Notes under the pieces: generated by a model
What the model saw: only the letters and a program-made list of their open reading frames with translations
What the model was told of the DNA's origin: nothing
Databases searched by the model: none
From: Carallia brachiata
Lineage: Eukaryota > Streptophyta > Magnoliopsida > Malpighiales > Rhizophoraceae
NCBI GenBank assembly: GCA_021464245.1
Contig: JADCRB010000096.1
Coordinates: 162,951-226,950, forward strand
DNA length: 64,000 bases
Direction of reading: 5' to 3'
Program-made: the position numbers and the translations under genes
In this document: positions 2,648 through 53,679 of the stretch, piece after piece
Layout: each line of letters begins with the position of its first letter
Position numbering within the stretch: position 1 is the first letter of the stretch

Positions 2648-3440
2648 TGTAACGGGTAAATTTCGAGTCTAAAACAATTAAACTCGAAAATATAAAAATA
2701 AATTACAAATAAAAATTTAAAAATAAAAGAAAATTTACATGGGGTCGATCTCCGTAAATCCTCCGATTAGTGTTCCTTTTTTGACTCCGTCAAGGGCTGC
2801 ACGAGCTTGGTCTTGACAGAAATAATTTCTACAGCTTTTTCTTGAACTGGGTAGACTGAAACCGGATCTGATTTGGACGTTTTGACTACGGTTAAAAACC
2901 GCAGAGACATGATTTGAGTCGATCTGACTTAATTTCACCGAGGGTTAAAGGGACTTGTTCTCGGATGAGTTGTCTGGATTTTGCTGAGGGCCGTATGAGA
3001 CTTAATCTCAACTGAATTTGTAGTAATTTGATATTTTTTGATCTATATTCTCATAAATTCAGATCTAAAGTGATCCGAGAATATAAATCTAAAAATAATT
3101 TTAGAAATGAAAACAACAAATTTTTTGGGGTTTACCCCTGAAATATCTCTAAAAAAGGAGTTAGGAGAGTATATTGCAGAGTAAAACCACGTAGAAAAAG
3201 GAGAAATTTTCTTGAGAGATTTTCCAAATTTTCTTTTTCTCTCAAATTTTCTGGATTTTTCTGTTTACAGATTTACTGAATATGTTTTGAACTGAGGGGT
3301 AGTGGCCTATTTATAGGGCTCCTTTCCCATGTGAACATCACATGGGAAAGGAATATTTTTTGAAATATTTTTCCTTGGCCGGCGTTGCCAATTTCAAGGT
3401 CGGCATCGCCGGCCATTGGCTTTTTTTTTTTTTTTTTTTG
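2648..3440 (-). repeat. E1 3' LTR
   Basis: It matches 12091-12895 along its length, starting TGTAACGGGTAAATTTCGAG where the partner has TGTAAAGCGTAAATTTCGAG. The minus-strand start of this LTR has lost the terminal TGTAAAC and runs from the polypurine tract (GAAGTGGGGGC) straight into an A-tract. Both LTRs share a TATA-like TATAAATAG near the inverted repeat CCCATGTGAACATCACATGGG. Confidence 0.93.
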
Positions 3441-3777
3441 CCCCCACTTCAAGGGTCGGTAAGGAAGAATTTTACAGAGATGATTCGAACCGAGTCTTAA
3501 AGTCCAGTTTGAAACTTGGAAACGTCCTGATGAACATTGAATCTTGGAGTTTTCTATCTTTGACTATGCCTGCTGTTGTTGGATCGCAATAGGAATCCGA
3601 TACGATCTTGAGAAAGTTAGCACCCCAGCCAATATAAAAATTGACATTCTAGCTCCAGGTGCGTGCGAGCTTCCATAGCTCGCAAAGGATTTTTTATATG
3701 TCTTAAAGTTCCAGAGCTCTAGTGAGAATGATCCGGTAGACAAAGAACTTGAACCTCCCCAAGATAAATGCTCAGAA

Positions 3778-4101
3778 CTACAGAACTTTAAGACTGGCAC
3801 ACAGAGAGACTGACTGTAGTGATGATTCCCAAGTTTGCTCCGACGTAAGGACTGTAGTTGGAACTTCCCTATACGTCGCCGCATCCAAAGAAAGATTAGG
3901 ATGATTGCAGCGTCTCATCCTTCTGTGGTAGATGTGAACTAAGGAGAGTAGTTGGAACTCCATAACACCGATGGAGTTGGAGACTGAGTTTCGAGAACTT
4001 TTAGGGATCCCTCGAGAAAGATTACTCCTTCTTTTCTTAACTCGTGCGCCTCCAACTTTTTGATCGAAGAACTTCCTGAGACAAGTGCAGAGACTAGCCA
4101 T
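3778..4101 (-). CDS. Second cargo ORF of E1, unknown function (107 aa)
   Basis: An open frame of 107 codons starts with MASLCTCLRKFF and includes a basic patch, VKKRRSNLSRG. It lies about 300 bp downstream of the homeobox ORF and before the 3' LTR, in the sense of gag-pol. A TATA-like run, TATATATAC, lies about 55 bp upstream of the ATG. The same region occurs in E3 (46027-46390; the ATG is ATA there and an in-frame stop lies upstream of a long open stretch) and in E4 (53680-54003, early stop). I recognise no domain. It could be a real small protein, the remains of a second captured gene, or a conserved 3' region that is open by chance. Confidence 0.4.
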   Translation of the reverse strand: MASLCTCLRKFFDQKVGGARVKKRRSNLSRGIPKSSRNSVSNSIGVMEFQLLSLVHIYHRRMRRCNHPNLSLDAATYREVPTTVLTSEQTWESSLQSVSLCASLKVL

Positions 4102-4150
4102 TTTCTTTTGAGAAAGAAGAGCTGAGCGGTGAGTATTACAACTCGGGAAT

Positions 4151-4166
4151 GCAAGATATATATACA
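4151..4166 (-). promoter_or_regulatory. TATA-like sequence upstream of second cargo ORF (E1)
   Basis: The minus strand reads CATATGTATATATATCTTGC, followed about 50 bp later by the ATG of the small ORF. E3 has a comparable TATATATATCC at about 45994-46004 and E4 a TATATTAC at about 54058-54065, at similar distances. No expression evidence is available. Confidence 0.35.
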
Positions 4167-4285
4167 TATGATAAAGATTTTTTTTTTTTTGAAAAATCAA
4201 AAAGAAGGTACGCAGAATCGAGTAGGATCATCCACGTCCCTTTCCTGCATAAGAGACAAAAGAGGCAGCGGCTGACGCGTGTCAC

Positions 4286-4390
4286 GAAAGTCGTTACCGT
4301 GTGTTGTAGAAGTCGTTGTCGTGTGTTGCAGAAGTCGTTGCCGTGTGCTGCGGAAGTCGTTACCGTGTGCTGCCAAAGTCGTTGCACCTT
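4286..4390. repeat. 22-bp tandem repeat between the two E1 cargo ORFs
   Basis: About four and a half copies of a 22-bp unit (AGTCGTTACCGTGTGTTGTAGA and variants) in tandem. E3 has only a single related copy in this place (about 45845-45875), so the expansion is specific to E1. Confidence 0.8.
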
Positions 4391-4405
4391 ATCTTGTCGG
4401 CTGTC

Positions 4406-5035
4406 CTAGCGGGGCCTGAGGCGCAACTCCAAGTCAAGTTCGACCTCGTCTGGTGGGCCGATGATGTGGACGTTGACGTCGACGTCGACGTCGCTTTCCG
4501 GCTGGTTGATGCTGTCGGAATATTCTAGAAAGAGAGGCAAAGTTTCGCCGGAATAACTCTTTTCTGCTAAAAAAATTCCTCCTAGACTTAAGTACCTAGG
4601 AGGGATGAACCCTTGGCTGACTCCGTAAGACCACCAGGACCAGTACGCATGCTCCCACAAGGTACGGCCTTGATCGTTATAGCCTGAAGAGACTATTGCC
4701 GTGGTAGAACTCGGACCTACTTCATTTGAGGGCGAAGTTGTACCGGTGGGATCTACCATCGGAATGGCAGACTGTTCTTTGGAAAAATCAGCTCTCAGTG
4801 CTGGTTTCTTCCTGCTTCTCCGATTCTAGAACCAATAAAACACATTTTTTCCTTCAATTGCCCCGAGTGGGCGCAATCGTGAGACAAGTTGGTAAATCTG
4901 AGATGCATTAGGCATAATACCTCCATTGTTGTGGAAGACTTCCTCCAAAATTTGCAGTTGTGCCATGGTTGGTTGCCATCTTGTGCGGGGTGACCTTTCT
5001 TCTCCTTTGCCTTGAGGTTCTGCAACTGGTTCCAT
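4406..5035 (-). pseudogene. WUSCHEL-related homeobox (WOX) cargo gene in E1, one nonsense codon
   Basis: A frame of 209 codons from ATG 5035 to TAG 4406 is open except for one stop at codon 70 (4826-4828). That codon is TAG where E3 has CAG, the Gln of the helix-3 WFQN block. Residues 17-80 form a WOX-type homeodomain: an R-T-R-W-Q-P-T start, the short IEGKNVFYWF signature typical of WOX proteins, then NRRSR. Residues 165-169 are TLPLF, matching the start of the WUS-box, and residues 201-207 are LDLELRL, an EAR-like repression motif at the extreme C-terminus as in WUS-clade proteins. A Trp/Tyr-rich block (HAYWSWWSYG) lies between. There is no intron. In plants WOX proteins are DNA-binding regulators of stem-cell and organ identity. 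The gene lies after pol, in sense, with about 500 bp of A-rich spacer before it. The function of this copy is inferred. Confidence 0.9.
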
Positions 5036-5119
5036 CTTTCTTGTAGCAGAGGAGCAAAGGTCTGGTGTGTGGTGAAGATCGGTTGAGACTGATGCTAGGT
5101 TTCAGACTCAAACCCTCCG

Positions 5120-5165
5120 TCGCTTTTATATTTTTGAGCCGTTCACAGTTTATACTCATACGGGC
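5120..5165 (-). promoter_or_regulatory. TATA-bearing leader upstream of E1 WOX ORF
   Basis: On the minus strand the motif TATGAGTATAAACTGTGAAC (TATAAA core) is followed by a second TATAAAAG 22 bp on, about 90-120 bp before the ATG. The same motif precedes the homeobox ORF in E3, E4 and E2, and is amplified in E2. This suggests a promoter carried with the cargo; it is unproven. Confidence 0.45.
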
Positions 5166-5532
5166 CAGAAGTTGGACTGGATTCTGAACTTGGGTTCTGG
5201 ACTGTGTCTGGAACTTGGAATTTTTGGGTTTTGGGCTTTGAATTGGATTTGGATTGAGTGTTTGGCCTTCTAGACTTGGATTTTTGGATTTGGGTCGAGT
5301 GTTTGGGTTTTGGTCTTGGAATTTTGGATTTGGGCTGAGTGTTTGGGTTTGGATTTTCGAGTTTGGATTCTCGCTTGGATTTTCAGATCGGGACTTCCAA
5401 ATTTTTTTTTTTTGATTTGATTTTTTTTTCTATTTTTTTTGAATTTTTTTTACTTATTTTTTTTCTTTTTTTTTGATTTTTTTTTCTATTTTCTTGATTT
5501 TGATTTTTTTTTTAATTTAAAAAAAAATATAT
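5165..5532 (-). repeat. E1 post-pol spacer: A-rich tract and AAATCCAAACCC-like degenerate repeats
   Basis: After the pol stop the minus strand runs through a long A-rich tract and then degenerate short repeats of the type AATCCAAACCCAAACACTC. The same two-part spacer follows pol in E2 (20160-20670), E3 (44751-45060) and E4 (55075-55372), so it is a fixed part of this family. No ORF is recognised. Confidence 0.75.
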
Positions 5533-8500
5533 TTACACATAATACTGTTTCAAAAATTTACCATTGATTGGGCCGATTCGGACGCCTTCTTGGTCTGACA
5601 GCATGTAAGCGTTGTGAGTATAGGCCTCCTGCACTAGGTATGGCCCGTCCCATTTGGAAGTAAACTTGTCACCAGGCCGATGCTTCATGTTGATGGGCCG
5701 TCGCACCGCAAGAACAAGGTCTCCAACTTGAAAAGATCGAGAGCGGACCCTGTGGTTGAACGTGTTGGTAAGCCGGGCTTGGGTAGCACTCAAGTTGCTG
5801 TTGTGCTTCGAGCCTCCTTTCATCGAGGGCTTCTAACTCATCCAGACGTAGGCGAGCATTCTCCTCCTGTGTGAGTCCTTCCAGAACAACCATGCGCAGG
5901 GATAGAATCTGTGTTTCCAACGGCAGTATTGCTTTGACACCGTAGACAAGTGAGTATGGCGTCGCCTGTGTTGGAGTCCGGTAAGTTGTACGATACGCCT
6001 ATAATGCCTCGGGAATTCTGTCATGCCAATCTCTTTTGGATTTAGAGACTACCTTTCGCAACAGGTTGCATAAGGTCTTGTTGAATGCTTCAGCCAAGCC
6101 ATTTGCTAGGGCATTGTACATGGATGACTTGTACTGCTTGAACTTAAATTTCTCGCAGAGCTTGTCGATTAAGCTGTTGTAGAACTGCTTACCATTATCA
6201 GTGACGATGAATCGAGGGACTCTATAGCGATAGATCAGCTGAGTCCGGATGAAACTTGCAACATGCTCCTTTTTTACCTCTCTAAGTGGAATAGCTTCGA
6301 CCCATTTTGAGAAGTAGTCTGTTGCTGCAAGGATGTACAGGTGACCCAGGGATGACTTTGGCAATGGCCCCACTAAGTCGAGACCCCAAGCTTCAAAGGG
6401 CCAGGATGAGACAGTTGAACGCAGTGGTTCCAGTGGTTGATGTATGTAATTGGCATGAAATTGACAAGCTTGACAAGTTTTAGCAAACTCAATGGAATCA
6501 CGTACCATGGTTGGCCAGTAGTATCCCATCCTTCTGTGTTAGAAGTGCAACTTAGGCCCCGATTGACGTCCGCCACAAACACCTGAATGTGCTTCAGCGA
6601 GAGCTTGTTTTGCCTATTCATTATCTAGGCAGCGAAGTAAAACTTCATCAAAAGACCTTCGATACAGAGCATCCTTGAGATATATGAAGCGGGGAGCTCG
6701 TCGTTGAATTTCTGTCTTATGACGACGATCTTCGGGCAGCTTCCCGTGCTGTAGGTAGTCAATGATTGGTTGGCGCCAATCCTCGTCCACCGCGAGACGT
6801 ACATATACAGCGTTGGCTGCTGTAGTTTCTTCATCGTCCTTCTGTGGCACTATCCATTTCTGGCGTACGGCAACAACTGTAGCCTGGATTTCTGACTTTG
6901 CAAGAGAGGTGGCTAGGTTAGCCAATGCGTCTACCTGAGTGTTTTCTCATCGAGGCACATGCTCCAAGGTGATGCTTTCAAATTCATCCATTAGCTGTCG
7001 AGCACGTTGATGGTAAGGCGCAAGATCCTCTTTCTTTACATCATACAATCCTGTAAGTTGATTGATGACGAGCTGGAAATCTCCATGGACTTCTATAGTT
7101 GGAATCTTCATATCGACAGCCATTTGAAGACTAATGATCAAAGCCTGGTGTTCAGCAACATTATTTGAACATAACTCACCGAGAATGATAGCATATGGTA
7201 GTATTTGTCGTTGAGGAGTGACAAACACTATACTGGCACCAGCACCATCACACGCTTGCTGCACCATCAAAGACATCGTCCATGGTGGCAGTGTAGACAA
7301 TGTCGTAGCTTTGTAAGATTACTGCCCACTTGGCAAGTCGTCCTGACAAGATTGGTCTAGATAAGATATATTTGACAGGATCAGCTCTAGCAATGAGACG
7401 TATCGTGTGAGCTTTCATGTAGTGCCTCAGCTTGTCAATGGCAAAGAACAGTGCTAGACATGTCTTTTCAATGGGCGAATAACTCAGCTCCGGACCGTTT
7501 AGTGTTCTGCTCAAGTAGTACAGGGCAACTTCCTTTCCCTGCTCGTTTTCCTGTGCAAGCAAGGCTCCCAAAGATCTTTCCTGCGCTGCAATGTAGAGAA
7601 TCAACGACTTTCCTTGAATTGGAGCACCTAGGACCGGTGGATTGGAAAGGTACTTCTTTATGCTCTCAAAGGCTTTGCTGCAAGCTTCGTCCCACTCGAA
7701 GTTGACATCCTTCTTCATCAACCGATGGAAAGGTTGACATCTCCCAGCTAAATTGGAGATGAAACGGCGAATGTAGGCCAGCTTTCCTTGTAGACTTCGC
7801 AGTCGTGCAGGTTTTTAGGTTCAGGCATCTTTTGAATTGCCTCAACCTTTGACTGATCAACTTCGATTCCACGATGGCGCACCACGAACCCAAGAAACTT
7901 TCCTGATGTGACACCGAATGCGCACTTGAGAGGGTTCATTTTGAGCTGATGCCTCCGAAGTCTTTCGAACACGTCTTGAGATCCTCGAGGTGGTCTTTGC
8001 GCTTCTTAGTCTTTACAACTAAGTCATCAACATAACATTCTACAATCTTGTGCAGCATGTCATCAAAAATTTTTTGCATAGCACGTTGATAAGTGGCGCC
8101 AGCATTTTTTAATCCAAACGGCATAACTTTGTAGCAGTATATACCTTTTGGGGTGCGGAATGCTGTCAACTCCTCGTCTTCTGGTGCCATTCTGATTTGG
8201 TTATAGCCTGAAGAACCATCCATGAAGGACAATGCTTCGTGACCCGTTGTTGCATCGACTGTGATCTCCGTTATGGGCAATGGAAAGTCATCTTTCGGGC
8301 AGGCCTGTTAAGATCTCGAAAATCAACACATACCCTCAACTGTCCATTCTTCTTTCTTACCGGGACATGTTGGCAATCCACGTTGGGTAGGTGACCTCTC
8401 GGATGAAGCCAGCATTGATCAGCTTGTTACCTCCTCCTCGATTTGTGGAATGAGTTCCGGGCGGAACCGTCGTTGTGGCTGCTTGACAGAACGAACACCC

Positions 8501-9986
8501 TTCTTTACTGCTAGACGATGCACCGCAATTTTTGGGTCAAGTCCAGGCATTTCTTTGTAACTCCATGCGAACACGTCCCTGTATTGACTTAATACCTGAA
8601 CATATTCTTGCTCTTCTTCTGCAGTAAGTAAAGCACTTACAAATGTAGGTCGAGGATCTTCCGGAGAGCCAAGATTGACCTCCTTGAGTTCATCAACAGT
8701 TGCTTGGGCCACCATCTTCAAGTTCCGGGGGAGCCTCCTTCACTTCACCATCTGATGAGTCGGACTCAGCCTCCTCGCTAATTGTGACATGAAATGCAGA
8801 ACCTCTGACTTCACCTTCTTTGTTTGACTGGATAAGCCTGTCTTGTTTGGTGGTGGTGTGATGGCACGTGCATCAGCTGCTCGGCTTCGGCTCTTTAGCG
8901 TGATCCGCACAGGTGACTTCTCCTGATAGCCTAAGCCAGGTCGGGACTGTGATGTTTGAGAAGCGGCGCCATGTGTGGACGGCAGCGTACCCATTGTGCT
9001 CGGGTTTGAGAAGTCATAGCCCGCCTTGCCAAAAGCTTGTATGCATTAGGATCAAATCCTTCATGTGTTCTTCTTTCTGGAAGTGAGCCGCCTTCGACTG
9101 CCCCCGTGTGTGGTTTGACGAAGCCTTTTAATGGTTTTGAAGACAAAACCGGCTCAATCTTTGGTATCGGCAGAGTGTAAGTCTCCTTCAGGTTGTGCAG
9201 CTCCTTTGTTTTGGGTTGGCTATGACCTTGCTCCTGTTTAGATCAATACAATAAGAGAAAGGGGGTTGACCTTCTGAGCGTCGTGACTTCGGCACATAGC
9301 GTAGGACTGGAGTGGAGCTTGAAGATGCAACATCCTTCGGACGAAGTTCAGCAGGCTTGGCAGCTTTTCATTTGTTGGAGCCTGGGGTTGGCATTGGCAG
9401 GTTCTTCGACAGCTTTTCCCTTTTTGGGATGCCCCCAGTCCAAGTAGCTTTTGATGGAATGATCTCCGGATTGTCTGTGTCGGTAGAAGACTGCATCCGC
9501 CAAATGTGATTCAGCATCATCGAACGGCTTTAAGTCAGCATTGACCTTTTGAACGCCACCATTGTAGTACTTGAAGCACTGATGCAGGCTTGAGAGCACA
9601 ACTCCATTTCCATGAATCCACGGTCGTCCTAGCAACATCTTATATGTGGTACGTGCATCAATCACATGAAATAGAGTGCTAGAAGTGAGATTACCGATAG
9701 TTAGCTCCAAGCGAATCATCCCAATTGCTTTCTGTCCTCCTTGATTAAAGCCATGAATCATCAAGCGGCTGTCTGATAATTCATCAATGCCGATGCCGAG
9801 CTCCTTTATGGTGGATTTTGGGATAATATTGACTGCCGAACCATCGTCGATCAGAATACGTCGGACCTTCTGTTCTCTCACATAGCCTGATACATACAGC
9901 GGCCGATTGTGGGGTTTGGACCCCAGCAGGAGATCCTCATCTGAAAATGAGATAGCAGAGTAACATCCGACGTGATTTTGGGTCAC
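5533..9986 (-). pseudogene. E1 pol: PR-RT-RH-aRH-INT, frameshifted
   Basis: The retroviral-type polyprotein replicates the element through an RNA intermediate. Protease at 9348-9986 carries the catalytic ILIDDGSA. Reverse transcriptase spans about 8720-7750, with catalytic YVDD at 8023-8034. Gypsy RNase H follows at about 7720-7310 (KTCLALFFAIDKLRHY), then the Tat-specific second RNase H at 7300-6947 (CSNNVAEHQALI, VHGDFQLVINQLTG). Integrase spans about 6925-5533 and has the H/C zinc-binding region (CQACQ), the LDLVGP Asp, the TDNGKQF Asp and the NGLAEAF Glu. The C-terminus ends NGKFLKQYYV. Several indels split the frame, and about 120 bp are missing between the two RNase H domains compared with E3. 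Confidence 0.93.
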
Positions 9987-11882
9987 CTGTGCTCCGCTGA
10001 GTTAGAATCATTTGATGGCTGTGATTCAGCTGAGGTCTGGAGAGTATTGCTGACTTGATTTTGCCACACTTCTGTTGATTGCAAAGCTATAAACAGCTGA
10101 GGGTTAGCGAGAAGGGTTTGGAGAGCTTCATATACCTTCTCCGTTGTCGACTTTTTGTCGAGCGGCTCCTCCTTACGGTGTGTCACCTCTTCTGATGGTT
10201 TTGAAGTGATGGTGGTCTGGTTTGCCGAGGTTACCTTCCTGGTCCAGAATGATTTTATTCTGGCTTTTGAGCTTCATGATTAGCTCCTTCAGGACGAAAC
10301 ACTTCTCGGTTGGATGACTTACTATCCGGTGATATTTGCAGAATCTCGGATCGCTGACTCGATCCTTTTCATTCGGCCGCTTGCACTCTGGGAGTTCGAT
10401 CAGCTTCGCCTCCAAGAGTTGTTCAAGAATGTCGGGACGTCTGAGTCGGGGAATGGATACTGCTTTGCTCCAACTCTCGCAATGTCACCTTCCGCCTTTC
10501 CTGTTGTTTTGGCTGAGTTATTTGGGTCGGAGGATTTACCTTAGCTTTGGCGCCCACTTTTACTGGTGCGGCTTCAACAGTCATCACTTCTTTTCCTTTT
10601 CCGGAGCTGTTGGGTTTCTTAATCTCCCTTCTGCCCCCTTGCTGGTCCAACTGGATGGGAACCGTGCCTCCGGAAGTCTGGATGCTTATCTCCATATCAT
10701 GTGCGCGGGTCGCCAGTTCTTCGAAGTTCGGGGTTTGACACCCTGCAGGATGTATAACAGCTCCCAATGCATTCCCTGGATGCACATCTCTACGGCAGAA
10801 GTCTCCGTCAGGCGATCTTTGCAGTCCAAGCTGAGGGCACGCCATCTGTTGATGTATTCGACAACGGGCTCTCCTTTCCTTTGTTTGGTGCTGGTAAGCT
10901 CCATCATACTTACCGTCCTTCGAGTGCTGAAAAATCTGTTGAGGAACTCTCGTTGTAGCTGTTCCCAACTGTCGATCGATTCTGGTTCAAGATTTATGAA
11001 CCAGGTGAAAGCGGTCTCCCTGAGTGAACGAACAAACTGCTTCACCAAGAGATCTCCATAAGTCCCTGCGTTGTTGCAGGTTTCAACGAAGTGGGCGATG
11101 TGCTGTTTGGGATCGCCTCGTCCGTCGAATTGTTGAAATTTGGGCGGCTGGTAGCCCAAAGGCATGTTGAGACTTTCGATCCGTCTGGTGTACGGTTTGA
11201 CGTACATCTGTGATCCTTGGAAGGATGTAGCTTGTTGCAGGCGTATTGGCTATCATTTCCTGCAATTGTTGAACAGATAGCGAAGCTACAGAATTTGAGG
11301 GTGGCAGCTGTGTAGAACTACCTGGTCGCTTTTCTGCAGAAGACGTCGGCTGGTGTGGCTTCTGGAGTGAAACCGGGTGGATATGGTTGCTCCTCGCGGA
11401 TTTCGGGATCAATTGGATCGGGGCTTTTCCTTTGAGAGCGGCGATCTGTTGATCTTTTTCCTCCACGACTCTGATCAGCTGCAAAATTTTGTTTCCAATT
11501 CTGAAATCTTTCTCTGTACTGGTTGTGTTGGTCATCATGACGGCAACAGATGAGGCTCCGGAAAGACTGGGGGAGAAACTCTTCTGATTCTTCTGTGTGG
11601 ATCTACAGAATGAGTTGGATTCTGTTGAGCAGGCTTCGTCGTGTTGCCCCCGACTTCGATCGGGGTGGGTGATCGACTCCTCCATGCGGCAAGAGAGTCA
11701 GGGGAGATCCTGTTGTGCAGCTGTGGACTCTCCATTTCGATATTTTGTCGGGTTTGGACGGCAAGAAATTGTGTCCGTCCCCGGGTTTCTGGACCTGCGT
11801 ACCCAGGTAGGGTAGTTGATGCAGGCAATGGAGCCGTTGCCTTCTTTTTTGTGGCAGCAGTTGTACTCCTTTTCGGTGCCAT
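9987..11882 (-). pseudogene. E1 gag, frameshifted
   Basis: Gag builds the virus-like particle. The ATG at 11882 gives a basic N-terminus (MAPKRSTTAATKKKATAPLP). The capsid-like core at 11207-10686 has the retrotransposon-gag wording FVRSLRETAFTWF and WEQLQREFLNRFF. A zinc-knuckle-like CKYHRIVSHPTEKC lies at about 10350. At least two small frameshifts split it, near 11640 and 10740. E3 carries the same protein with nonsense codons instead. Confidence 0.9.
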
Positions 11883-12066
11883 TTGATGTGCTGAACACCT
11901 GTAAAATTTTTTTTTTTTTTTTTTTACTTTTTTTTTTTTTTTACTTTTTACTTTTTACTTTTTTCTTTTTACTTTTTTTTTTCTTTTTTTTTTCTTTTTT
12001 TTTTTCTCGGCTCCCCTTTTACCTCTTTTTTTTTTTTTTAAGGAACAAGAGATGGGAGGTGAAGTT

Positions 12067-12084
12067 GTCCCACCGAGCGTGCCA
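12067..12084 (-). other. E1 primer-binding site
   Basis: The minus strand reads TGGCACGCTCGGTGGGAC, starting 6 nt inside the 5' LTR. It begins with TGG as expected for pairing with a tRNA CCA end. E3 (38123-38140) and E4 (60951-60968) have the same site at the same spacing with a few transitions. I do not assign the tRNA. Confidence 0.75.
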
Positions 12085-12090
12085 AAAATT

Positions 12091-12895
12091 TGTAAAGCGT
12101 AAATTTCGAGTCTAAAACAATTAAACTCGAAAATACAAAAATAAATTACAAATAAAAATTTAAAATAAAAGAAAATTTACGTGGGGTCGATCTCCGTAGA
12201 TCCTCCGATTAGTGTTCCTTTTTTGACTCCGTCAAGGGCTGCACGAGCTTGATCTTGACAGAAATAATTTCCACGCTTTTTCTTGAACTAGGTAGACTGA
12301 AACTAGATCTGATTTGGACGTTTTGACTACGGTTAAGAACCGCAGAGACCTGATTTGAGCCGATCTGAGTTAATTTCACCGAAAGGTCAAAGGGACTTGT
12401 TCTCGGATGAGTTGTCTGGATTTTGCTGAGGGCCGTATGAGGCTTAATCCCAGCTGAATTTGTAGTAATTTGATATTTTTAGATCTATATTCTCATAAAT
12501 TCAGATATAGAGCGATCCGAGAATATAAATCTAAAAATAATTTTAGAAATGAAAACAGCAAATTTTTTGGGGTTTACCCCTGAAATATCTCTCAAAAAGG
12601 AGTTAGGAGAGTATACTGCAGAGTAAAACTACGTAGGAAAAGGAGAAATTTGTTGAGAGATTTTCAAAATTTTCTTTTTCTCTCAAATTTTCTGAATTTT
12701 TCTACTTACAGATTTACTGAATATGTTTTGAACTGAGAGGCAGGTGCCTATTTATAAAGGCTCTTTTCCCATGTGAACATCACATGGGAAAAGAATATTT
12801 TTTGAAATATTTTTCCTTGGCCGGCGTTGCCAATTTCAAGATCAGCAACGCCGAACATTGACTTCTTTTTTTTTTTTTTTTTTTTTTTGTTTACA
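12091..12895 (-). repeat. E1 5' LTR
   Basis: An 805-bp LTR with TG/CA ends (TGTAAAGCG on the plus strand, terminal GTTTACA). It pairs with 2648-3440 and contains a long T run at about 12866-12888. Confidence 0.93.
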
Positions 12896-18049: not shown

Positions 18050-18325
18050 TGTAATTTTGGCTTCCTTCATCCCCAAAACTCAATAAATAGGCACTCACTC
18101 AACCCTTTCAATCCATCCATTGCAAAGTAAAAACTTCTCTTCTAAAGTTTTGCATTTCTCCTCTTCTCTCGTTTTAATATTTTGAGTATATGCTTTCTAA
18201 TTGTTTCTGAGTTGCATCCGCTAAATCAAAACCTCAAGGTATTAAAATCTTAAATATCCGAGTGGAATCAAGCCCCTTACGACTCTCACCAGAGTCCAAC
18301 AAGTCCATTTGAGATCAAGCTCATA
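18050..18325 (+). repeat. Partial LTR at the 5' end of E2
   Basis: The sequence from a TATA-like CAATAAATAGGC through ATTAAAATCTTAAATATCCG resembles the partial LTR at 47840-48463. It ends at CGGCGTTCGGTGAGAC, which matches the primer-binding region of E1, so the terminal part of the LTR is deleted. Confidence 0.6.
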
Positions 18326-18400
18326 CGGCGTTCGGTGAGACTTTTCTGCCTCCCATCTTTTGCTCCACTGAAAAAAGAAGAAGAGAAATGTAGCGCATCA

Positions 18401-20095
18401 ATGGCGTCAAAGAAGAGTGTGACTGCCTCCACCATCAAGAAGACAGTTGCTCTATTACCTGCATTAACTACCCTACTTGGATACGGAGGTCTAGAAACTT
18501 GCGGACAGACAAGGTTCCTCGCTGCTCAAAATATTGAAATGGATAATCTGCAGCTTATATAGTAACAGGATTTCTCACCCGACTCTCTCGCAGAATGGAG
18601 AAGTCAATCTTCCATCTTGATCAAAGTAGGGGGCAACACATCAAAACTCACACAACACCAAAAGCTGAACTATTCTGCAAAAATAAGCACAGAGGAATCA
18701 GAAGAGCCCTCTACCCCAATCTTCCATGGAGCATCATCTGTCAACACCGACATCGTTGCAGTCATAATAACAAACACAACTAGCACAAAAGATAGGATTG
18801 TAGAATTGGAAAGTAAAATTTTCCAGTTAATTAAAGTTTTGGAGGAAAAAAATCAACAGATCATCCGTCTCAAAGAAAAGGCTTCAATACAAGTTGATTG
18901 TGAGACTAGTGAAGAGCAGTCATATCCACTTGGTTTCACTCCAAAAGCAACTCCAGCCAACATCTTCACGACAGAAAAATAACAAAGTGGTCCCACACAA
19001 CTGCTGCTTTCAAATTCTATCACTTCGTTATCTGTCCAACAATTACAAGACATGATAGCTAACACAATTCGTTTACAACAAAGTGCATCATTTCAAGGTT
19101 TATAAATGTATGTCAAACCGTACACAAGACGAATTAAACACCTCAGCATGCCCTTCGCTTGGACTACCAACCGCCTAAGTTTCAACAATTTGATGGACGG
19201 GGTGATCCTAAGTAACACGTTGCTCACTTTGTTGAAACCTGCAATAATGCAGGAACCTACGGTGACCTTTTGGTGAAACAGTTTGTTCGTTCACTGAAAG
19301 ACATCACCTTTACCTGGTTTATAAACCTTAAACTAGAATCAATTAACAGTTGAGAACAGCTGTAACGTGAGTCTCTCAATAGATTTTTCAGCACCCATCG
19401 AGTAGTAAGTATGATGGAGCTTACAAGTACCAAGCAAAGGAAAGGAGAACCCGTTATCAAATACATAAATAGATGACGTGCTCTTTGTCTAGATTGCAAA
19501 ATCATCTTACAGAGACTTCTGCGGTAGAAATGTGCATTCAGGTGATGCATTAGGAGCTGCTATACATCTTACAGGGCATCAAACCTTGAACTTTCGAGGA
19601 ATTGGTGACTCGCGCTCATGACATAGAGATAAGCATCAAGACCTCTAGTGGCATAGTTCCCATCCAAGTAGACCAGTATGAGGATAAAAAAGTGATGACT
19701 GTTGATGCTTCACCAATCAAAGTAGGAGCTAAAGCGAAAGTGAGCCATCCAACACCAACAAATCAACCAAAATAACAAGAAAAGGGAAAGACGACGTCGC
19801 GAGAGTTGGAACAGAAGAAGTATCCATCCCTGCATTTGACATTCCAAATATTCTTGATCAACTTTTAGAAGCCAAACAAATCAAACTCCCAGAGTGCAAG
19901 TAACCCAGTAAGAAGGATCAGGTTAATAATCTGAAATTATGCAATTATCACTGCATAGCCAGCCATCCAACTAAGAAGTGCTTCGTCTTAAAGGAGTTGA
20001 TCATGAAACTCATGAATCAAAATAAAATCATTTTAGATCTAGAAAACGTAGCCTCAGCCAACCAAACTACTATTTCTTCAAATCCATAAGAAGAA
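18401..20095 (+). pseudogene. E2 gag, decayed
   Basis: The ATG at 18401 starts MASKKSVTASTIKKTVALLP, like E1 gag. Downstream blocks match in order: EEKNQQIIRLKEKA, the core gag region near 19230-19560 (QFVRSL, TFTWF after frame changes), and a zinc-knuckle-like region near 19940 (CNYHCIASHPTKKC). Numerous stops and indels make it non-functional. Confidence 0.85.
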
Positions 20096-20669
20096 GGTCG
20101 ACAATGATTGATGCTTACCTGCTGTCAGACCAAAAAATAGATCTCTCGATCAAGCAGTAAATTTTTAAAACGTTACTATGTTAAAAAAATAAAAAAGAGA
20201 AAAAAAATCTAAAAAAATAAAAAAACAAAAAAATCTAATAAAAAGAAAAAAAAATTCAAAAAAAGCAAAAAAGACAAAAAAAAACAAAAAAAAAAAAAAA
20301 AAAGTATGAAGCTTATGTGCAGGGTTTAGCTCAAAAATCTAAATCCAAGTTCAAAACTCATCCTCAAAATTCAAATTCAGATTCGGGTATAGACCCCGAA
20401 CCCTGACTGAAACCTGACGTCTAGATCCAAATTCGGGCTCAAAGCTCAAATCCAAACCTAGCAAATCTAAATCAAAATCCAAAGCCCAAATCCGAATCCA
20501 ATGTCCAAATTTAAACCCCAACTTAAACCCGAAGCCTAAATCCAAATTCGGGCCTAAACTCGAGTTCAAAATCCCTAAATCCAATTTCTAGCTCAAAATA
20601 CAAATCCAGATTCGGTGACAAACCCCAAACTTGTACCCAAATCTAAAGCCCAAATCCAAGCACAAATCC

Positions 20670-21345
20670 AGACTCCTATCTCGCACGAGCATAAAAGGCG
20701 AAAAGTTCAACAATAAATTCAGACTTTTGTCTTGCATGTGTATAAATGGCGAACAATTTAGCAAATTATCCTCCTGTCTCACACGAGTGTAAAAGGAGAA
20801 CAACTTAAGTAGACTCCTATCTCGCACTAATATAAAAGACGAACACCTTAACAGCAAATCCACACTCCTACCTCGCATGAGTATAAATAACAAATAGTTC
20901 AGCACACCACACTCCTGCCACGCACGAATATAAAAGGTGAACAACTCAATAACATATCTAAATTCTTGCCTTACATGAGTATAAAAGGCAAACAACAGTA
21001 CAACAAATCTACACTCCTACCTCACACGAGTATAAAAGGTGAACAGCTTAGCAAATCAGATTTTTGTCTTACACGAGTATAAAAGGCAATCAACTGAAGC
21101 AGACTCCTACTTCCCACGAGTATAAAAGGCGAAACGTTCAATAACACAACAGCAAACTCCTTTATCGCAAGAGTTTAAAAGGCGACAACCCAATAACAGG
21201 CTTCTGCCTCGGATGAGTACAAAAGAAGAACAGTCAAAGCATTTTCTTGGCCCGCATGAGTATGAATTGTGAATGGTCCAAAAATTAAATTCAGGACTCA
21301 GTCCAAAACTCCTAACATGTATGAGTATAAATTGTGAACGACCTA
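20670..21345 (+). repeat. Array of about 14 TATA-bearing tandem units upstream of the E2 WOX relict
   Basis: Units of the form CGCACGAGTATAAAAGGCGA recur with cores at about 20691, 20741, 20788, 20831, 20882, 20929, 20980, 21031, 21079, 21121, 21174, 21219, 21261 and 21326. The spacing is 42-65 bp, mean near 49. The last two units match the single-copy leader motif ATGAGTATAAACTGTGAA of E1 and E3. Linkers such as AACAACTCAATAACA are also shared. The array appears to be a local expansion of the presumed cargo promoter. Confidence 0.9.
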
Positions 21346-21451
21346 AAAGGATAAAAACAATTGACGGTTTGAGTTTAAATCATTATTTCAGTCTCAACCT
21401 TTTAGTCATTCTTACTGCAGGTCAAGCTTATGCATTCTTTCAGCTAAAAAG

Positions 21452-21850
21452 ATGAAATCAGTTGCAGAACTTGGGGAGAAGGGAGGGGATAGATCACCAT
21501 CCACTAAATGGCGACTAAGTCCAATGCAACTGTAAATCTTGGAGGAATACTTCCGCAATAGTGAAGGTACTTGTCCTAATTTATTACAGCTCTCGTAACT
21601 TGCTTCACGATTGTGACCGTAAGAAGTAGTTGAGATAAAAAAATTGTGTATTTTTGGTTCCAAAACCAGAGAAACAGGGAGAGAGCATCATTGAGAGCTG
21701 CTATCTCTACAGCAGAGCTTATCTCAACCATCGCAGCTATTCCCATGATAGATCTTACTAGTATGACTTCGTTCTCAAAGGAAGTGGGTCCCAACTCAAC
21801 TATTGCAATGGTCCATCAAGGCTATTTCAACCAAAGATATAGTCTATAAT
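21452..21850 (+). pseudogene. WOX cargo relict in E2
   Basis: The ATG at 21452 starts MKSVAELGEKGGDRSPSTKW, aligning with the E1/E3 N-terminus. The helix-1 block reads ILEEYF, and after a frameshift helix 3 reads FWFQNQRNRERA (21655-21690). Downstream, KEVGPNSTIAMV aligns with NEVGPSSTTAIV of E1. Homology stops near 21866, before the WUS-box, so the C-terminal third is missing. Internal stops occur at several codons. Confidence 0.8.
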
Positions 21851-21866
21851 AGTACGCATATTAGTA

Positions 21867-37326: not shown

Positions 37327-38116
37327 TATAAATATCCTTTTTCTATAAAATAAAAAAAAAAGGTCAAGTTAATGTTGGCGTTGACAATTTTAAAATTGAC
37401 AACGCCGACGCAGAAGAAATATTTTCTTCCTTTCCCATGTGATTTTCACATGGTAAAGGAGTCCTATAAATAGATTCTTACCCCCAAGTTCAAAATAGAT
37501 TCAGAAAATTTATAGACAGAAAAATCCAAAGAATTTAAGAGAAAAAGAATTTTAAAAATCTCTCAAGAAAATTTCTCCTTTTTCTATGTGTTTTTACTCT
37601 ACAGTATACTCTCCTGACTCCTTTTTTAGAGATATTTCAGAGGTAAACCCCAAAAAATTTGCTGTTTCCATTTCTAAAGTTATTTTTGAGTTTATATTCT
37701 CTGATCGCTTTATATCTGAATATGTGAGAATATAAATATGAAAATATCAAAATATTGTAAATCCGGCTGGGATCAAGTCTCATACGACCCTCAGCAAAGT
37801 CCAGGCTGTTCATCTGAAAACAAGTCCCTTCGACCCTCGGTGAAATTAGACCAGGTCTCTGTGATTCTTAACCGTAGTCTAAACGTGCAAATCAGATCCA
37901 GTTTCAGTCTATTCAGTTCAAGATAAAACTGTGGAAATCATTTCTTTCAAGATTTAAGTTCGTGTAGCCCTTGACAGAGTCAAAAAAGAACACTAATCGG
38001 AGGAATCACGAATATCGAGCTCACGTAAATTTTCTTTTATTTTAAATTTTTATTTGTAATTTATTTTTGTATTTTCGATTCTAATTGTTTTAGGTTCGAA
38101 ATTTACGTTCGTTACA
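37327..38116 (+). repeat. E3 5' LTR
   Basis: 790-bp LTR pairing with 46719-47518. The first dinucleotide is TA here where the partner has TG (TGTAAATATCC). It ends CGTTACA, and TATA-like TATAAATAG lies after an imperfect CCCATGTG/CACATGG inverted repeat. Confidence 0.95.
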
Positions 38117-38122
38117 AATTTC

Positions 38123-38140
38123 TGACACGCTCAGTGGGAT
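38123..38140 (+). other. E3 primer-binding site
   Basis: TGACACGCTCAGTGGGAT lies 6 nt after the LTR. It differs from the E1 site only by G-to-A and C-to-T transitions. Confidence 0.7.
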
Positions 38141-38370
38141 TTCTTCACCTCCTATATCTTATTTTTTTTTTAAAAAAAAAAGCAAAAAAAGCAGCGGAGA
38201 AAAGAAAAAAAAAGAAAAAAAAAGAAAAGAGCCGAGAAAAGAAAAAAAAGAAAAAAAGAAAAAAAAAGAAAAAGACAAAATAGAGAAGAAGGCAAAAAAA
38301 GGTAAAAAGTAAATATAAAAAATAAAAGAAGAAGAAAAAAGAAATTTTTAACTAGAATCCAGCACATCAA

Positions 38371-40205
38371 ATGATATCAAAGAGAAGTACAGCTGTCGGT
38401 ACCAACAAGAAGGCAACAGCTCCATTGTCTGCATCAACTACCCTACCTGCGCACGCAGACCTAGAAACCCATGGACAGACACGATTTCTCGCCGTCTAAA
38501 TTCGACAAAATATCGAAACGGAGAGTCCACAGCTCGCACAGTAATAGGATCTCTCCCCTGATTGTCTTGCCGCATGGAGGAGTTGATCACCCACCCCAAT
38601 TGAAGTCGGGGGCAACGCGACGAAGCCTGCTCAACAAAATCCAACATATTCTGTAAAGATCCACACAGAAGAATAAGAGGAATCTTCTACCCCAGTCTTT
38701 CGCGAAGCCTCATCTGTTACTGTCATGATGACCAACACAACTAGCACAGAAGAAAGGATTTTAGAATTGGAGAACAAGATTTTATAGCTAATCAGAATCG
38801 TGGAGGAAAAAGATCAACAGATCGCCGCTCTTAAAGGGAAGGCCCCGATCCAAGTTGATCCCGAGATCAGCGAAGAGCAACCATATCCACCCAGTTTCAC
38901 TCCAGAAGCCACACCAGCCGACGTCTTCACTGCAGAAAAGCAACCAGGTAGTTCTTCACAACTGTCACCCTCAAATTCTGTAGCTTCGCTATCTGTTCAA
39001 CAATTGCAGGAAATGATAGCTAACACGATCCGGTTACAACAAGTTAGATCCTTTTAAGGATCATAGATGTACATCAAACCGTACACTAGACAGATCGAAA
39101 GTCTCAATATGCCTTTGGGCTACCAGCCGCCCAAATTTCAACAATTCGACAGACGAGGCGATCCCAAACAGTACATCGCTCACTTCATTGAAACCTGCAA
39201 CAACACAGGGACTTACGGAGATATCTTGGTGAAGCAGTTTGTTCGTTCACTCAGGGAAACCGCTTTCACCTGTTTCATAAATCTTGAACTAGAATCGATA
39301 GATAGTTGGGAACAGTTACAACGAGAGTTCATCAATAAATTTTCCAGCACTCAAAGGACGGTAAGTATGATGGAGCTTACCAGCACCAAACAAAGGAAAG
39401 GAGAGCCCGTTGTCGAATACATCAACAGATGGCGTGCTCTTAGCTTGGACTGCCAAGATCGCCTGACGGAGACTTCTTCTGTAGAGATGTGCATCCAGGG
39501 AATGCATTGGGAGCTGTTATACATCCTGCAGGGCATCAAACCCCGAACTTTCGAAGAACTAGCGACCTGCGGACATGATATGGAGATAAGCATCTAGAGT
39601 TTCGGGGGCACGGTTCCCATCCAGCTGGACCAACAAGGAGGCAGAAGGGAGATTAAGAAACCCAACAGTTCAGGAAAAGGAAAAGAAGTTATGACTGTTG
39701 AAGCCGCACCAGTAAAAGTGGGAGTCAAAGCTAAGGTAAATCCTCTGACCCAAATAACTCAGCCAAAACAACAGGAAAGGCGGAATGTGACATTGCGAGA
39801 GTTGAAGCAGAAGCAATATCCATTCCCCAACTTAGACGTTCCCAACATTCTTGAACAACTCTTGGAGGTGAAGCTGATCGAACTCCCAGAGTGCAAGCAG
39901 CCCAATGAAAAGAATTGAGTCGGTGATTCAAGATTCTGCAAATATCACTGCATAGTAAGTCATCAAACCGAGAAATGTTTCGTCTTGAAGGATCTAATCA
40001 TGAAGCTCAAGAGCCAGAATAAAATCATTCTAGACCAGGAAGGCGTAACCTCGGCAAACCAAACCACCATCGCTTCAAAATCATCAGAAGAGGTGACACA
40101 CTGTAAGGAGGAGCCGCTCAACAACAAAATGTCGACAACGGAGAAGGTATATGAAGCTCTCCAAACCTTTCTTGCTAACCCTCAGCTGTTTACAGCTTTA
40201 CAATA
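38371..40205 (+). pseudogene. E3 gag with nonsense codons
   Basis: The ATG at 38371 begins MISKRSTAVGTNKKATAPL. The core gag region at 39067-39597 (QFVRSLRETAFTCF, WEQLQREFINKF) is a continuous 176-codon stretch, and the zinc-knuckle-like CKYHCIVSHQTEKC lies near 39935-39975. Stops occur for instance at codons aligned with Gln in E1. The linker and the start of pol follow. Confidence 0.9.
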
Positions 40206-43200
40206 ACAGAAGTGTGGCAAATTAAAGTCAGCAATACTCTCCAGATCTCAGCTGGATGTTACTCCGTTATCTCATTTTCAGATGAGGATCTCCTACTGGG
40301 GTCCAAACTCCCTAATCGGCCGCTATATGTATCAGGCTATGTGAGAGAACAGAACGTCCGACGTATTCTGATCGACGACGGCTTGACAGTCAATATTATC
40401 CCAAAATCCACCGTAAAGAAGCTCGGCATTGGCATTGATGAGTTGTTAGACAGCCGCTTGATGATTCATGGCTTTAATCAAGAAGGACAGAAAGCAATTG
40501 GAATGATTCGCTTGGAGCTAACTATCGATAATCTCACTTCTAGCACTCTATTTCATGTGATTGATGCATGTACCACGTATAAGATGTTGCTCGGACGATT
40601 GTGGATTCATGGAAATGAAGTTGTGCTCTCAAGCCTACATTAGTGCTTCAAGTACTACAATGGTAGCGTTCAAAAGATCAATGCTAACTTAAAGCCATTT
40701 GATGATGCTGAATCACATTTAGCAGATGCAGTCTTCTACACTGACACAGACAATCCGGAGATCATTCATCAAAAGCTACTTGGACTAGGGGCATCCACAA
40801 AAAGGGAAAAGCTGTCGAAGAACCTGCCAATACTCAACCTCAGGCTCTAAGAAATGAAAAGCTGCCACAGCTTGCTGAACTTCGTCCGAAAGATGTTGCA
40901 TCTTCGAGCTCCACTCCAGTCCTACACTATGTGCCAAAGTCACGACTCCTAGAAGGTCAACCCCCTTTCTCTTATTGTATTGATCATAAACAGGAGCAAG
41001 GACATAATCAACTCAAGACAAAAGAACAGCACAACGTGAAGGATACTTACACTCTGTCGATACCAAAGATTGAGCCGGTTTTGTCCTCAAAACCATTAAA
41101 AGGCTTTGTCAGACCACACACGGGGGCAGTCAAAGGCGGCTCATTTTCAGAAAGAAGAACACACGAAGGATTTGATCCTAATGCATACAAGCTTTTGGCC
41201 AAGGCGGGTTAGGACTTCTCAAACCCGAGCACAATGGGTACACTGCCATCTACAAGTGACGCCACTTCTCAATCATCACAGTCCCGACCTGGCTTAGGCT
41301 ATCAAGAGAAGTCACATGTGCGAATCATGCTAAAGAGCTAAAGCCGAGTAGCTGATGCACGTGCCATCACCACTACCACCAAACAAGACAGACTTATCCA
41401 GTCAAACAAAGAAGATGCAGTCAGGGGCTCTACATTTCATGTCACAATTAGCGAGGAGGCTGATTCTGACTAACAGAAGGCGAAGTAAAGGAGGCTCCCC
41501 GCAACTTGAAGATGGTGGCCAAGCAATTGTTGATGAACTTAAGGAGGTCAATCTTGGCTCTCTGGAAGATCCCCGACCTACATTTATAAGTACTTTACTT
41601 ACTGCAGAAGAAGAACAAGAATATGTTCAGGTATTAAGTCAATATAGGGACATGTTCGCATGGAGTTACAAAAAAATGCCTGGACTTGACCCGAAGATCG
41701 TGGTGCATCATCTAACAGTAAAAAGGGGTGTTTGTTCTGTCAAGCAGCCACAACGACGGTTCCGCCTGGAACTCATTCCACAAATTGAGGAGGAAGTTAA
41801 CCAGCTGATCAATGCTGGCTTCATCCGAGAGATCACCTACCCAACGTGGATTGCCAATATAGTCCCGGTAAGAAAGAAGAATGGACAGTTAAGGGTATGT
41901 GTTGATTTTTGAGATCTTAACAGGGCCTGTCCGAAAGATGATTTTTCGTTACCCATAACGGAGATCACTGTTGATGCAACAACAGGCCACGAAGTATTGT
42001 CCTTCATGGATGGTTCTTCAGGCTATAACTAGATCAGGATGGCACCAGAAGATGAGGAGTTGACGACATTCCATACCCCAAAAGGTATATACTGCTACAA
42101 AGTTATGCCATTTGGATTAAAAAATGCTTGTGCCACTTATCAGCGTGCCATGCAAAAAATTTTTGATGACATGCTGCACAAGATTGTAGAATGTTATGTC
42201 GATGACTTAGTAGTAAAGACTAAGGAGCGCAAAGATCACCTCAAGGATCTTAAGACAGTGTTTGAAAGGCTTCGTAGGCATCAGCTCAAAATGAATCCTC
42301 TCAAGTGCGCATTTGGTGTCATATCAGGCAAGTTTCTTGGGTTCGTGGGTGCGCCATCGTGGAATCGAAGTTGATTAGTCAAAGGTTGAGGCAATTCAAA
42401 AGATGCCTGAACATAAAAACCTACACGAATTGCGAAGTCTACAAGGAAAGCTGGCCTACATTCACCGTTTCATCTCCAACTTAGTTGAGAGATGTCAACC
42501 TTTCCATCGACTGATGAAGAAGGATGTCAACTTCGAGTGGGACGAAACTTGCAGCAAAGCCTTCGACAGCATATAGAAGTACCTTTCCAATCCACCAGTC
42601 CTAGGTGCTCCAATTCAAGGAAAGTCGTTGATTCTCTACATTGCAGCGCAGGAAAGATCTTTGGAAGCCCTGCTTGCACAGGAAAATGAGTAGGGAAAAG
42701 AAGTTGCCATGTATTACTTGAGCAGAACACTAAACGATCCGGAGCTGAGCTATTCGCCCATTGAAAAGACATGTCTAGCACTGTTCTTCGCCATTGATAA
42801 GCTGAGGCACTACATACAAGTTCACACGGTATGTCTCATTGGCAGAGCTGATCCTATCAAATATATCTTATCTAAACCAATTTTGTCAGGACGACTTGCC
42901 AAGTGGGCAGTAATCCTACAGAGCTATGATATTGTCTACGTGCCTCAAAAAGCAGTAAAGGGACAAGCTTTAGCAGATTTCCTAGCAGATCACCATGTCC
43001 CGTCGAATTGGGAGTTCACAGATGATCTTCCAGATGAAGAGGTCTTTTACATTGAGACACTGCCACCATGGACAATGTTCTTTGATGGTGCAGCAAGACA
43101 TGATGGTGCTTGTGCCGACATAGTGTTTGTCACTCCTTAACGGCAAATACTACCATATGATATCATTCTCGGTGAGTTATGTTCAAATAATGTTGCCGAA

Positions 43201-44750: not shown

Positions 44751-45070
44751 ATATGTTAAAAAAATTAAAAAAAGAAAATCAAAAAAATCAAAAGAAAAAA
44801 ATCAAAAAAAGAAAAAAAAATCAAAAATAGAAGAAAAGAAAAAAAATCGAAAATCAAAAAAAAGAAAAACAAGAGTCCCAATCTGAAAGTCCAAGCGAAA
44901 GTCCAAACCTGAAAATGCAAGCGCAAACACTTGAGCTCAAATCTGAAAACTCAAGCCCAAATCAAGAAAGCCCGAAAACCCAAATCCAATCCAAAACAAA
45001 ACCCGAAACCCAAAAATTCCAAGTTCCAACACAAGTCCAGAACCCAAGTTCAAAATTCAATCCAACTCCT
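44751..45070 (+). repeat. E3 post-pol spacer
   Basis: A-rich tract followed by degenerate AAATCCAAGCCC-like repeats, as in the other elements. No ORF is supported. Confidence 0.75.
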
Positions 45071-45071
45071 G

Positions 45072-45100
45072 GCCCGCATGAGTATAAACTGTGAATGGCC
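45072..45100 (+). promoter_or_regulatory. TATA-bearing leader motif upstream of E3 WOX ORF
   Basis: CCCGCATGAGTATAAACTGT (TATAAA at 45083-45088) about 120 bp before the ATG at 45204. It corresponds to the unit that is tandemly expanded in E2. Confidence 0.45.
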
Positions 45101-45203
45101 CAAAAATAAAAAGCAACGGAGGGTTTGAGTCTGAAACTCAGCCCCAGTCTCAACTGATCTTCACCACCACATACCAGACTTTTGCTCCTCTACTACAAGA
45201 AAG

Positions 45204-45830: not shown

Positions 45831-46026
45831 CAGGATAAGGTGCAACGACTGCTGCAGTACACGTAACGACTTTCATGACACACGACAACCGTTGCCTTTT
45901 TTGTCTTTTATGTGGGAAAAGGACGTGGAGGACCCCACTCGATTCTGCGTACCTTTTTTTTGACTTATATATATATATATATATATCTTTGGTGTATGTA
46001 TATATATCCTGCATGCCCGAATCATA

Positions 46027-46602: not shown

Positions 46603-46718
46603 GAGATTTCAACATTCAATATTCATTAGGACATCTCAAATTTTACATTGGACTTCAAGACTTGGTTCGGATTACATCCCCAAAATTCCTCCTTATCGAC
46701 CCTTGAAGTGGGAGCATT

Positions 46719-53393: not shown

Positions 53394-53679
53394 AATGCCC
53401 CTACTCCAAGACTTGGTGAGGAAGAATATTGGTGATGTGATCCGAATCGAGTCTTGAAGTCCAATTTGAAACTTGAGAAGTTTTGATGAACATTAAATCT
53501 TGATGTCTTTAACTCCGACCAGCTTAGCTGCTGTTGGATCTTAATAAGAACTAATACGACTTTTAGGATGTTGTCCCTCCAGCCAATATAAAAATTGAAG
53601 TTTCATGGTTCTGGTGAAGATAATGCAGTAGGCAAAAAACTTGAACCTCCCCTTAGGGAGTGGCCATTACCATAGAACA

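Follow-up and report, generated by a model that had tools for sequence, protein, structure and literature searches.

The closest precedent for a WOX gene inside a plant LTR element comes from Vigna. In Vigna marina and V. riukiuensis, WOX genes have been amplified and lie mostly between identical LTRs with TSDs, and V. riukiuensis holds over 1000 LTR-flanked copies, according to the available text of a 2023 meeting report (PMC10714607). The family described here is similar in that its WOX copies also lie between LTRs with TSDs and have been amplified. Sequence, lineage, gag-pol content, orientation and selection tests are absent from the available part of that report, and the two cases are likened by description only. 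Because LTR-flanked WOX genes are reported in Vigna (PMC10714607), a WOX gene inside an LTR element is an already known kind of event, and the present family is not its first instance. An earlier note on this DNA, made from the sequence alone, had known of no described LTR retrotransposon family with a stem-cell regulator as cargo. In that general form the claim gives way to the Vigna report; what holds is narrower, in that a literature search working from partial listings found no LTR family with its own gag-pol that retains a WUSCHEL (WUS)-like gene, PMC10714607 being the only relevant record. Two Vigna proteins, both named WUSCHEL, were among the best 120 of 4,122 protein matches.

Other plant elements resemble the present family in single traits. 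The TRP28 ORFs of Retand, as given in the available sections of PMC11963269, are likewise extra genes between pol and the 3' LTR with predicted DNA binding; they are antisense and belong to PF04195, whereas the gene described here is in sense and encodes a homeodomain. The Ogre/Tat elements with eORFs, in the accessible parts of PMC6317226, share an aRH between RNase H (RH) and integrase (INT), and extra ORFs are common among them. Their prominent eORF domains are the plant mobile domain, Transposase_28 and Athila ORF-1, in contrast to the homeodomain found here. That survey, as excerpted, kept eORFs of at least 250 codons, and an ORF of 209 codons would be missed by it. Maize Bs1, named in the available text of PMC7264820, is a further plant LTR element that has taken up host sequence. 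Transduced ORFs are described in that text as present in one or few copies, whereas every family member inspected has the gene studied here. Extra ORFs are thus common in plant LTR elements and clues to their function are few; here the extra gene belongs to a recognisable class of stem-cell regulators and carries repressor motifs.

Architecture of element E1

The window (the whole stretch of 64,000 nucleotides of Carallia brachiata DNA that was analysed) contains the LTR retrotransposon E1, with the following features.

2648..12881, minus strand: element E1, a retrotransposon with LTRs and two RNase H domains (LTR pair 93.5% identical; Pfam domains)
12091..12881, minus strand: 5' LTR (blastn against the 3' LTR)
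10686..11249, minus strand: gag, PF03732 (Pfam, E 1.6e-15)
9348..10001, minus strand: protease region, weak aspartyl protease match under the cut-off (Pfam, E 5.1e-04)
7936..8307, minus strand: reverse transcriptase (RT), PF00078 (Pfam, E 1.5e-22)
7248..7814, minus strand: RNase H, PF17917/PF17919 (Pfam)
6947..7318, minus strand: second RNase H, PF13456, between RH and INT (Pfam, E 1.1e-16)
5999..6538, minus strand: integrase core, rve, PF00665 (Pfam, E 3.8e-11)
3778..4102, minus strand: ORF-B, second small sense ORF with no family match (ORF list, Pfam scan)
2648..3439, minus strand: 3' LTR (blastn against the 5' LTR)

The Pfam domains follow one another in the order gag, weak protease, RT, RNase H, second RNase H and integrase. 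An aRH between RH and INT is a trait of the angiosperm Tat lineages Ogre and Retand in the available text of PMC6317226, and in E1 the PF13456 domain sits at exactly that place. Judged by its domains, E1 is a Ty3/gypsy element with Tat-type gene order. An assignment to Retand was dropped, because the stretch from pol to the 3' LTR of E1 measures ~2.1 kb (pol end near 5.54 kb, LTR at 3439), shorter than the 2,933-6,566 bp given for the POL-3'LTR region of Retand clusters in the accessible part of PMC11963269. This region of E1 holds a single antisense ORF of at least 100 aa (103 aa). ORF-B, without a match in the Pfam scan, lies 3' of the WUS-like ORF and encodes a basic KKRRS stretch. Its counterpart in element E2 is at 46063-46602 (plus strand), and its frame is intact in some young copies and broken in several others.

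A WUSCHEL-like ORF between integrase and the 3' LTR

Downstream of pol, E1 carries an ORF with three recognisable motifs.

4406..5035, minus strand: WUS-like ORF, 209 codons plus stop, with one in-frame TAG at 4826-4828 (ORF list, translation, Pfam)
4805..4987, minus strand: homeodomain, codons 17-77 of the ORF (PF00046)
4529..4543, minus strand: WUS-box-like TLPLF (translation)
4418..4438, minus strand: EAR-like LDLELRL at the end of the ORF (translation)

The frame opens with ATG and runs from 5035 to 4406. The earlier note had read it as a WUSCHEL-type homeobox gene carried by a Ty3/gypsy retrotransposon, placed between integrase and the 3' LTR in the sense of gag-pol. The position and orientation were found as described (rve at 5999-6538, LTR at 2648-3439), and the identification is supported by a homeobox HMM match, by WUS as best PDB relative and fold match, and by the enclosing LTRs and TSDs. 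PF00046, the profile proposed there as a check, matched the E1 ORF with an E value of 2.4e-12 when the TAG was read through and of 2.4e-07 over the unbroken first 69 residues; the match of the E2 ORF, read through its stop, had an E value of 2.7e-13. The homeodomain, TLPLF and the terminal LDLELRL are all present in the 209-codon frame as claimed, but the frame is not open, for a TAG lies between IEGKNVFYWF and NRRSR. Because this codon, which replaces the Q of FYWFQN, breaks the frame, the E1 copy of the ORF is dead.

Related copies in the window

Three further copies of the family are present in the window.

37327..47518, plus strand: element E2, flanked at either end by the TSD ATAAT, LTR identity 84.8% (LTR blastn)
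45204..45830, plus strand: WUS-like ORF of E2, with one in-frame TGA at 45582-45584 (translation, PF00046)
52596..63013, minus strand: element E3, older, ends approximate, 5' LTR split by an insert (LTRs 82.2% identical)
54309..54947, minus strand: decayed WUS-like ORF of E3 (tblastn pieces, E 2.7e-26)
18228..21861, plus strand: relic E4, gag present, nearly all of pol deleted (similarity to the family)
21452..21861, plus strand: remnant of the decayed WUS-like ORF of E4 (tblastn, E 2.7e-15)

The WUS-like gene lies within the LTRs in E1, E2 and E3; the window search found no 3' LTR for E4. It had been considered that the ORF might fall outside the LTR boundaries in other copies, and in E2 there are LTRs on both sides of it and the TSD ATAAT. 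Nor are the three motifs a product of chance, which the note had thought very unlikely, since the frame recurs in E2 with a different stop, in decayed form in E3 and E4, and free of stops and frameshifts in part of the genome copies. Likeness between E1 and E2 is 0.87-0.93 in gag, parts of pol and the WUS-like ORF, and 0.80-0.86 in the spacers, the LTRs and ORF-B.

Some minor features of the window were also recorded. The insert in the 5' LTR of E3 (61588-62833) is ~1.2 kb long and mostly of low complexity, and an LTR-like fragment at 48268-48467 is perhaps the remnant of a solo LTR. Germin-like protein genes or fragments are found at 15156-15731, 27043-27609, 31358-31858 (-) and 51666-52166 (+), partly in duplicated blocks ~11.9 kb apart; among the best 120 protein matches of the germin-like sequences, identity reaches at most 82%, to Erythroxylum.

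The family across the host genome

A search of the host genome with the ORF protein gave 2,290 candidates, of which the best 150 all had E values of 6.5e-97 or better and each spanned at least 201 of 208 residues. The family carrying the WUS-like gene has at least 150 copies. A homeobox family search of the genome returned host homeobox genes and element copies mixed among its best 150 of 1,347 candidates.

Copies were also sampled by the tail of pol. A 71-residue piece of pol was searched, and 60 entries on eight contigs were examined from the best 150 of 1,241 candidates. The ORF was downstream on the same strand for 25 of these 60 copies among the matches listed; eight of the remaining 35 were fetched, and it was present in every one. 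No copy without the WUS-like ORF was found among those looked at (the 25 listed and the eight fetched pol-tail copies).

Complete frames from ATG to stop, 203-209 aa long, were present in 18 of 20 copies chosen from stop-free entries, the exceptions being L022, which is frameshifted, and L023, which has lost its start. In a set of 30 copies ordered by their likeness to E2, which includes E2 itself and three of the first 20, half (15/30) had neither a stop nor a frameshift relative to copy L019. Three of the eight pol-picked copies, which all came from entries without a listed ORF, were free of both over the stretch fetched. Of 19 copies examined, the LTRs could be aligned in 12, for some of them along only a portion of the LTR, and six had exact 5-bp TSDs. 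The youngest pairs differ by 1/910, 4/940 and 3/436 mismatches. At an LTR substitution rate of 1.3e-8 per site and year, the youngest copies are less than 0.3 million years old.

Protein motifs, fold and WOX affiliation

Compared by sequence with the PDB, the E2 protein (read through its stop) was closest to WUSCHEL (E 5.7e-15), with STENOFOLIA at 2e-12. An AlphaFold model of the same protein had pLDDT >90 at residues 21-70 of the homeodomain and low confidence in the tail, and its best fold matches were DNA-bound WUS homeodomains, 6ryd first. Motifs were tabulated for the 44 of 46 copies in which the central motif was found (L074 and L077 were dropped). The WUS-box TLxLFP is present in 35 of these 44, and LxLxL in all 44 C-terminal strings; in place of TLxLFP, E1 has TLPLFL and E2 has PLPLFS.

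In the available text of PMC6788696, NVFYWFQNH marks the modern (T3) WOX clade and NVFYWFQNR the intermediate clade. Helix 3 of the element protein reads NVFYWFQNR, so the modern-clade signature is absent, and the protein combines an intermediate helix-3 signature with a modern-clade WUS-box and a homeodomain of WUS length. Its EAR motif, LDLEL[HR]L, agrees with the EAR core in its general form and is neither the L[DE]L[ST]LN of WUS nor the L[DE]LRLS of WOX5/7. Homeodomain phylogenies, which the earlier note had advised, put the element homeodomain on a long branch; in one tree this was apart from the intermediate clade (99/97), yet also outside the WUS-type proteins (82/84). When host paralogues were included in the tree, none of the groupings with WOX5, WUS or the intermediate clade was rejected (p 0.29-0.31). 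The element protein can thus be called WUS-like, but not an orthologous WUS, given the intermediate-clade signature of helix 3 and the several placements that the tree with host paralogues allows.

By homeodomain, the host genome has WOX loci that we take, from subclade signatures, to be WUS (two), WOX1 (two), WOX2, WOX3, WOX4 (two), WOX5 and WOX13. The best alignment scores of a young element copy among the host WOX proteins were those to host WUS (165 and 164), with 34/67 identical residues for L061 and 33/67 for L062; identity to host WOX3 was slightly higher, at 36/66, with a lower score. Host WUS and the element protein have in common a homeodomain of WUS length and the IEGKNVFYWFQN core. 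They differ in that NHKAR of host WUS is NRRSR in the element protein, and in that the latter sits inside a retrotransposon. That this is a WUSCHEL-like homeodomain gene is, in our view, practically certain.

Origin and predicted expression of the gene

In host WOX5 a GT...AG stretch separates the homeodomain from TLQLFP and LDLRL, which are read in a different frame, and the element ORF is without an intron at this break. WUS-clade genes have two to four exons in sunflower and two in Dendrobium, in the partial accounts available. Because host WOX5 has an intron where the element ORF has none, it is likely, to judge from the two gene structures, that an ancestor of the element captured a spliced WUS-type RNA.

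A putative promoter lies upstream of the ORF.

5149..5154, minus strand: TATAAA within an island conserved 5' of the WUS-like ORF, predicted to be an internal promoter (invariant in four of four window copies)

All 20 fetched copies have the GAGTATAAA motif, whose first base lies 120-126 nt ahead of where the ATG usually stands, and an internal TATA promoter is predicted for the WUS-like gene. Splicing was considered as an alternative to such a promoter; upstream of the ATG, no splice acceptor common to E1 and E4 was seen when the sequences were read by eye. The available part of PMC7264820 cites a Grande gene of maize that occupies the corresponding region and is transcribed from a promoter of its own.

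Tests of selection on the WUS-like ORF

Variants were counted as single-base differences from copy L019. Across 46 distinct copies, 20 of which had been taken from a ranking by homeodomain score, which favours like homeodomains, the homeodomain had 33 synonymous and 31 nonsynonymous variants (ratio 0.28, p 4.8e-07). For homeodomain variants present in at least two copies the counts were 17 and 11 (ratio 0.19), and for the part behind the homeodomain, in the same 46 copies, 56 and 110 (ratio 0.58). When a ranking by the whole ORF supplied the sample (30 copies), the homeodomain had 29 synonymous and 31 nonsynonymous variants (ratio 0.31); in the eight pol-picked copies the counts were 12 and 20 (ratio about 0.49). 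Invariant positions were defined across 113 WUS-type and eight intermediate WOX proteins. E1 keeps 20 of 24 of these as compared with 13 of 48 other positions (Fisher p 6.4e-06), and E2 keeps 19 of 24 as compared with 11 of 48 (Fisher p 6.3e-06).

Results from the older copies point the other way. Among the old window copies there was no third-codon-position excess in the ORF. Between E1 and E2, dN/dS was 0.68 for the whole ORF (interval 0.44-1.16), 0.11 for RT, 0.17 for INT and 0.29 for gag, with gag and pol pieces ranging over 0.11-0.50. At sites where E1 and E2 agree, E4 differs by 20, 16 and 62 changes at the first, second and third codon positions of gag, a strong third-position excess; the corresponding numbers are 29, 40 and 42 in the WUS-like ORF, with little or no such excess, and 14, 24 and 17 in its homeodomain. 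The gag stretch used for this control had no match in E3, and the control was computed without E3. Because gag alone has a strong third-position excess against E4, constraint on the ORF over the long run was much weaker than on gag. In simulations of stop survival, 52-61 random changes left the frame free of new stops in 10-14% of cases, which is not decisive.

Our reading of these figures is that the homeodomain is under moderate purifying constraint in the present family, and that the protein has changed fast over the long run. Four of the eight pol-picked copies (L098, L100, L102 and L105) make up a second subfamily that shares homeodomain codon changes relative to L019, including NVYFWF for NVFYWF. 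By comparison of its sequences, the element homeodomain has diversified, and a second subfamily with shared homeodomain changes fits fast long-run change. It is probable, even with the gag control taken into account, that the WUS-like gene, present in every copy inspected, is both resident in the family and selected.

Proposed role and alternatives

In the available text of PMC9781121 and PMC6788696, TOPLESS is an interaction partner of EAR motifs, and WUS function is described as depending on the WUS-box. From the WUS-box and EAR motifs of the element protein a TOPLESS-recruiting repressor is predicted, and we regard repressor biochemistry as reasonably likely. In the mechanism that we propose, the ancestor element would have captured the spliced RNA of a WUS-type gene, which would now be transcribed from its own TATA promoter. 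The homeodomain of the product would bind WUS-like sites, the WUS-box and EAR motifs would recruit TOPLESS, and host genes would be repressed in meristem or germ-line-forming cells. Such repression might favour undifferentiated or less defended cells, from which new insertions would reach the next generation. We hold it to be about as likely as not that this reading is right as a whole, namely a Tat-order family with a resident WUS-like gene whose protein is a repressor used on host genes in meristem or germ-line-forming cells; that the element would benefit through the host's stem-cell state is put forward more tentatively.

WUS blocks cucumber mosaic virus via repression of methyltransferase genes, according to the accessible part of a review (PMC9781121 or PMC6788696). 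Given this antiviral action, a WUS mimic could by analogy alter both cell fate and defence. The strongest version, in which the element's WUSCHEL mimic would keep cells in, or push them to, stem-cell identity, lower their defence and transpose in the gamete lineage, is speculative and on balance unlikely. If true, it would be a plant counterpart of a retroviral oncogene, permanently retained.

The most serious competitor, although we consider it unlikely too, is that the protein acts on the element itself, binding its LTR or internal promoter so as to adjust its transcription, without any part for host stem-cell genes. The synonymous excess in the DNA-binding domain would suit such a self-regulator, and regulatory roles are proposed for the TRP28 antisense ORF proteins of Retand in the available text of PMC11963269. 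A scan of the LTRs of E1, E2 and E3, however, found no excess of the WUS-type sites tested, and TAAT was rarer there than in dinucleotide shuffles (5-8 versus ~12-14 in the E1 and E2 LTRs, 10-11 versus ~14 in those of E3), a weak argument in that the sites are of the known WUS type and the protein's own may differ. The scan thus gave no motif support for binding of the element protein to its own LTR. Because the scan was negative, host targets are weakly preferred over self-regulation.

A captured cDNA might also have spread only through its residence in an active element. Such a passenger would explain the loose constraint outside the homeodomain (ratio 0.58) and why codon positions carry no signal among old copies or in the comparison with E4, in which gag does show one. 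It sits badly with homeodomain ratios of 0.28 (46 copies) and 0.31 (the 30 copies not ranked by homeodomain), with the retention of core residues while most other homeodomain positions changed, and with an ORF missing from none of the copies looked at, and we hold it to be improbable.

Selection at the level of the host, with some copies serving as extra WOX loci, would agree with the gene having its own TATA island, and the available text of PMC10714607 leaves open whether WOX amplification aids coastal adaptation in Vigna. It is nevertheless very unlikely here, for near-identical complete ORFs are found in many dispersed, partly very young insertions, as selection for spread of the element predicts. 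A coincidence of assembly or annotation, with host WOX genes merely beside LTR elements, has a negligible probability, since LTRs and TSDs enclose the ORF and the host has its WUS, WOX1-5 and WOX13 at loci of their own that differ in sequence, and no point in its favour was found.

Such a gene, recognisable in class and equipped with repressor motifs, is retained in a young family of high copy number in which DNA binding bears signs of selection, and it thereby allows a test of whether an element can steer cell identity. Together with the Vigna report, the family suggests that WOX capture may recur, and plant WOX gene counts may be inflated by mobile copies.

Short WUS-like proteins (P0001, P0002, P0011, P0013, P0019 (Ipomoea), P0078 and P0023) were also noted, most of them with a WUS-box and an EAR motif. 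In Ipomoea some of them occur as fusions with unrelated gene models, which looks like dispersal by a mobile element.
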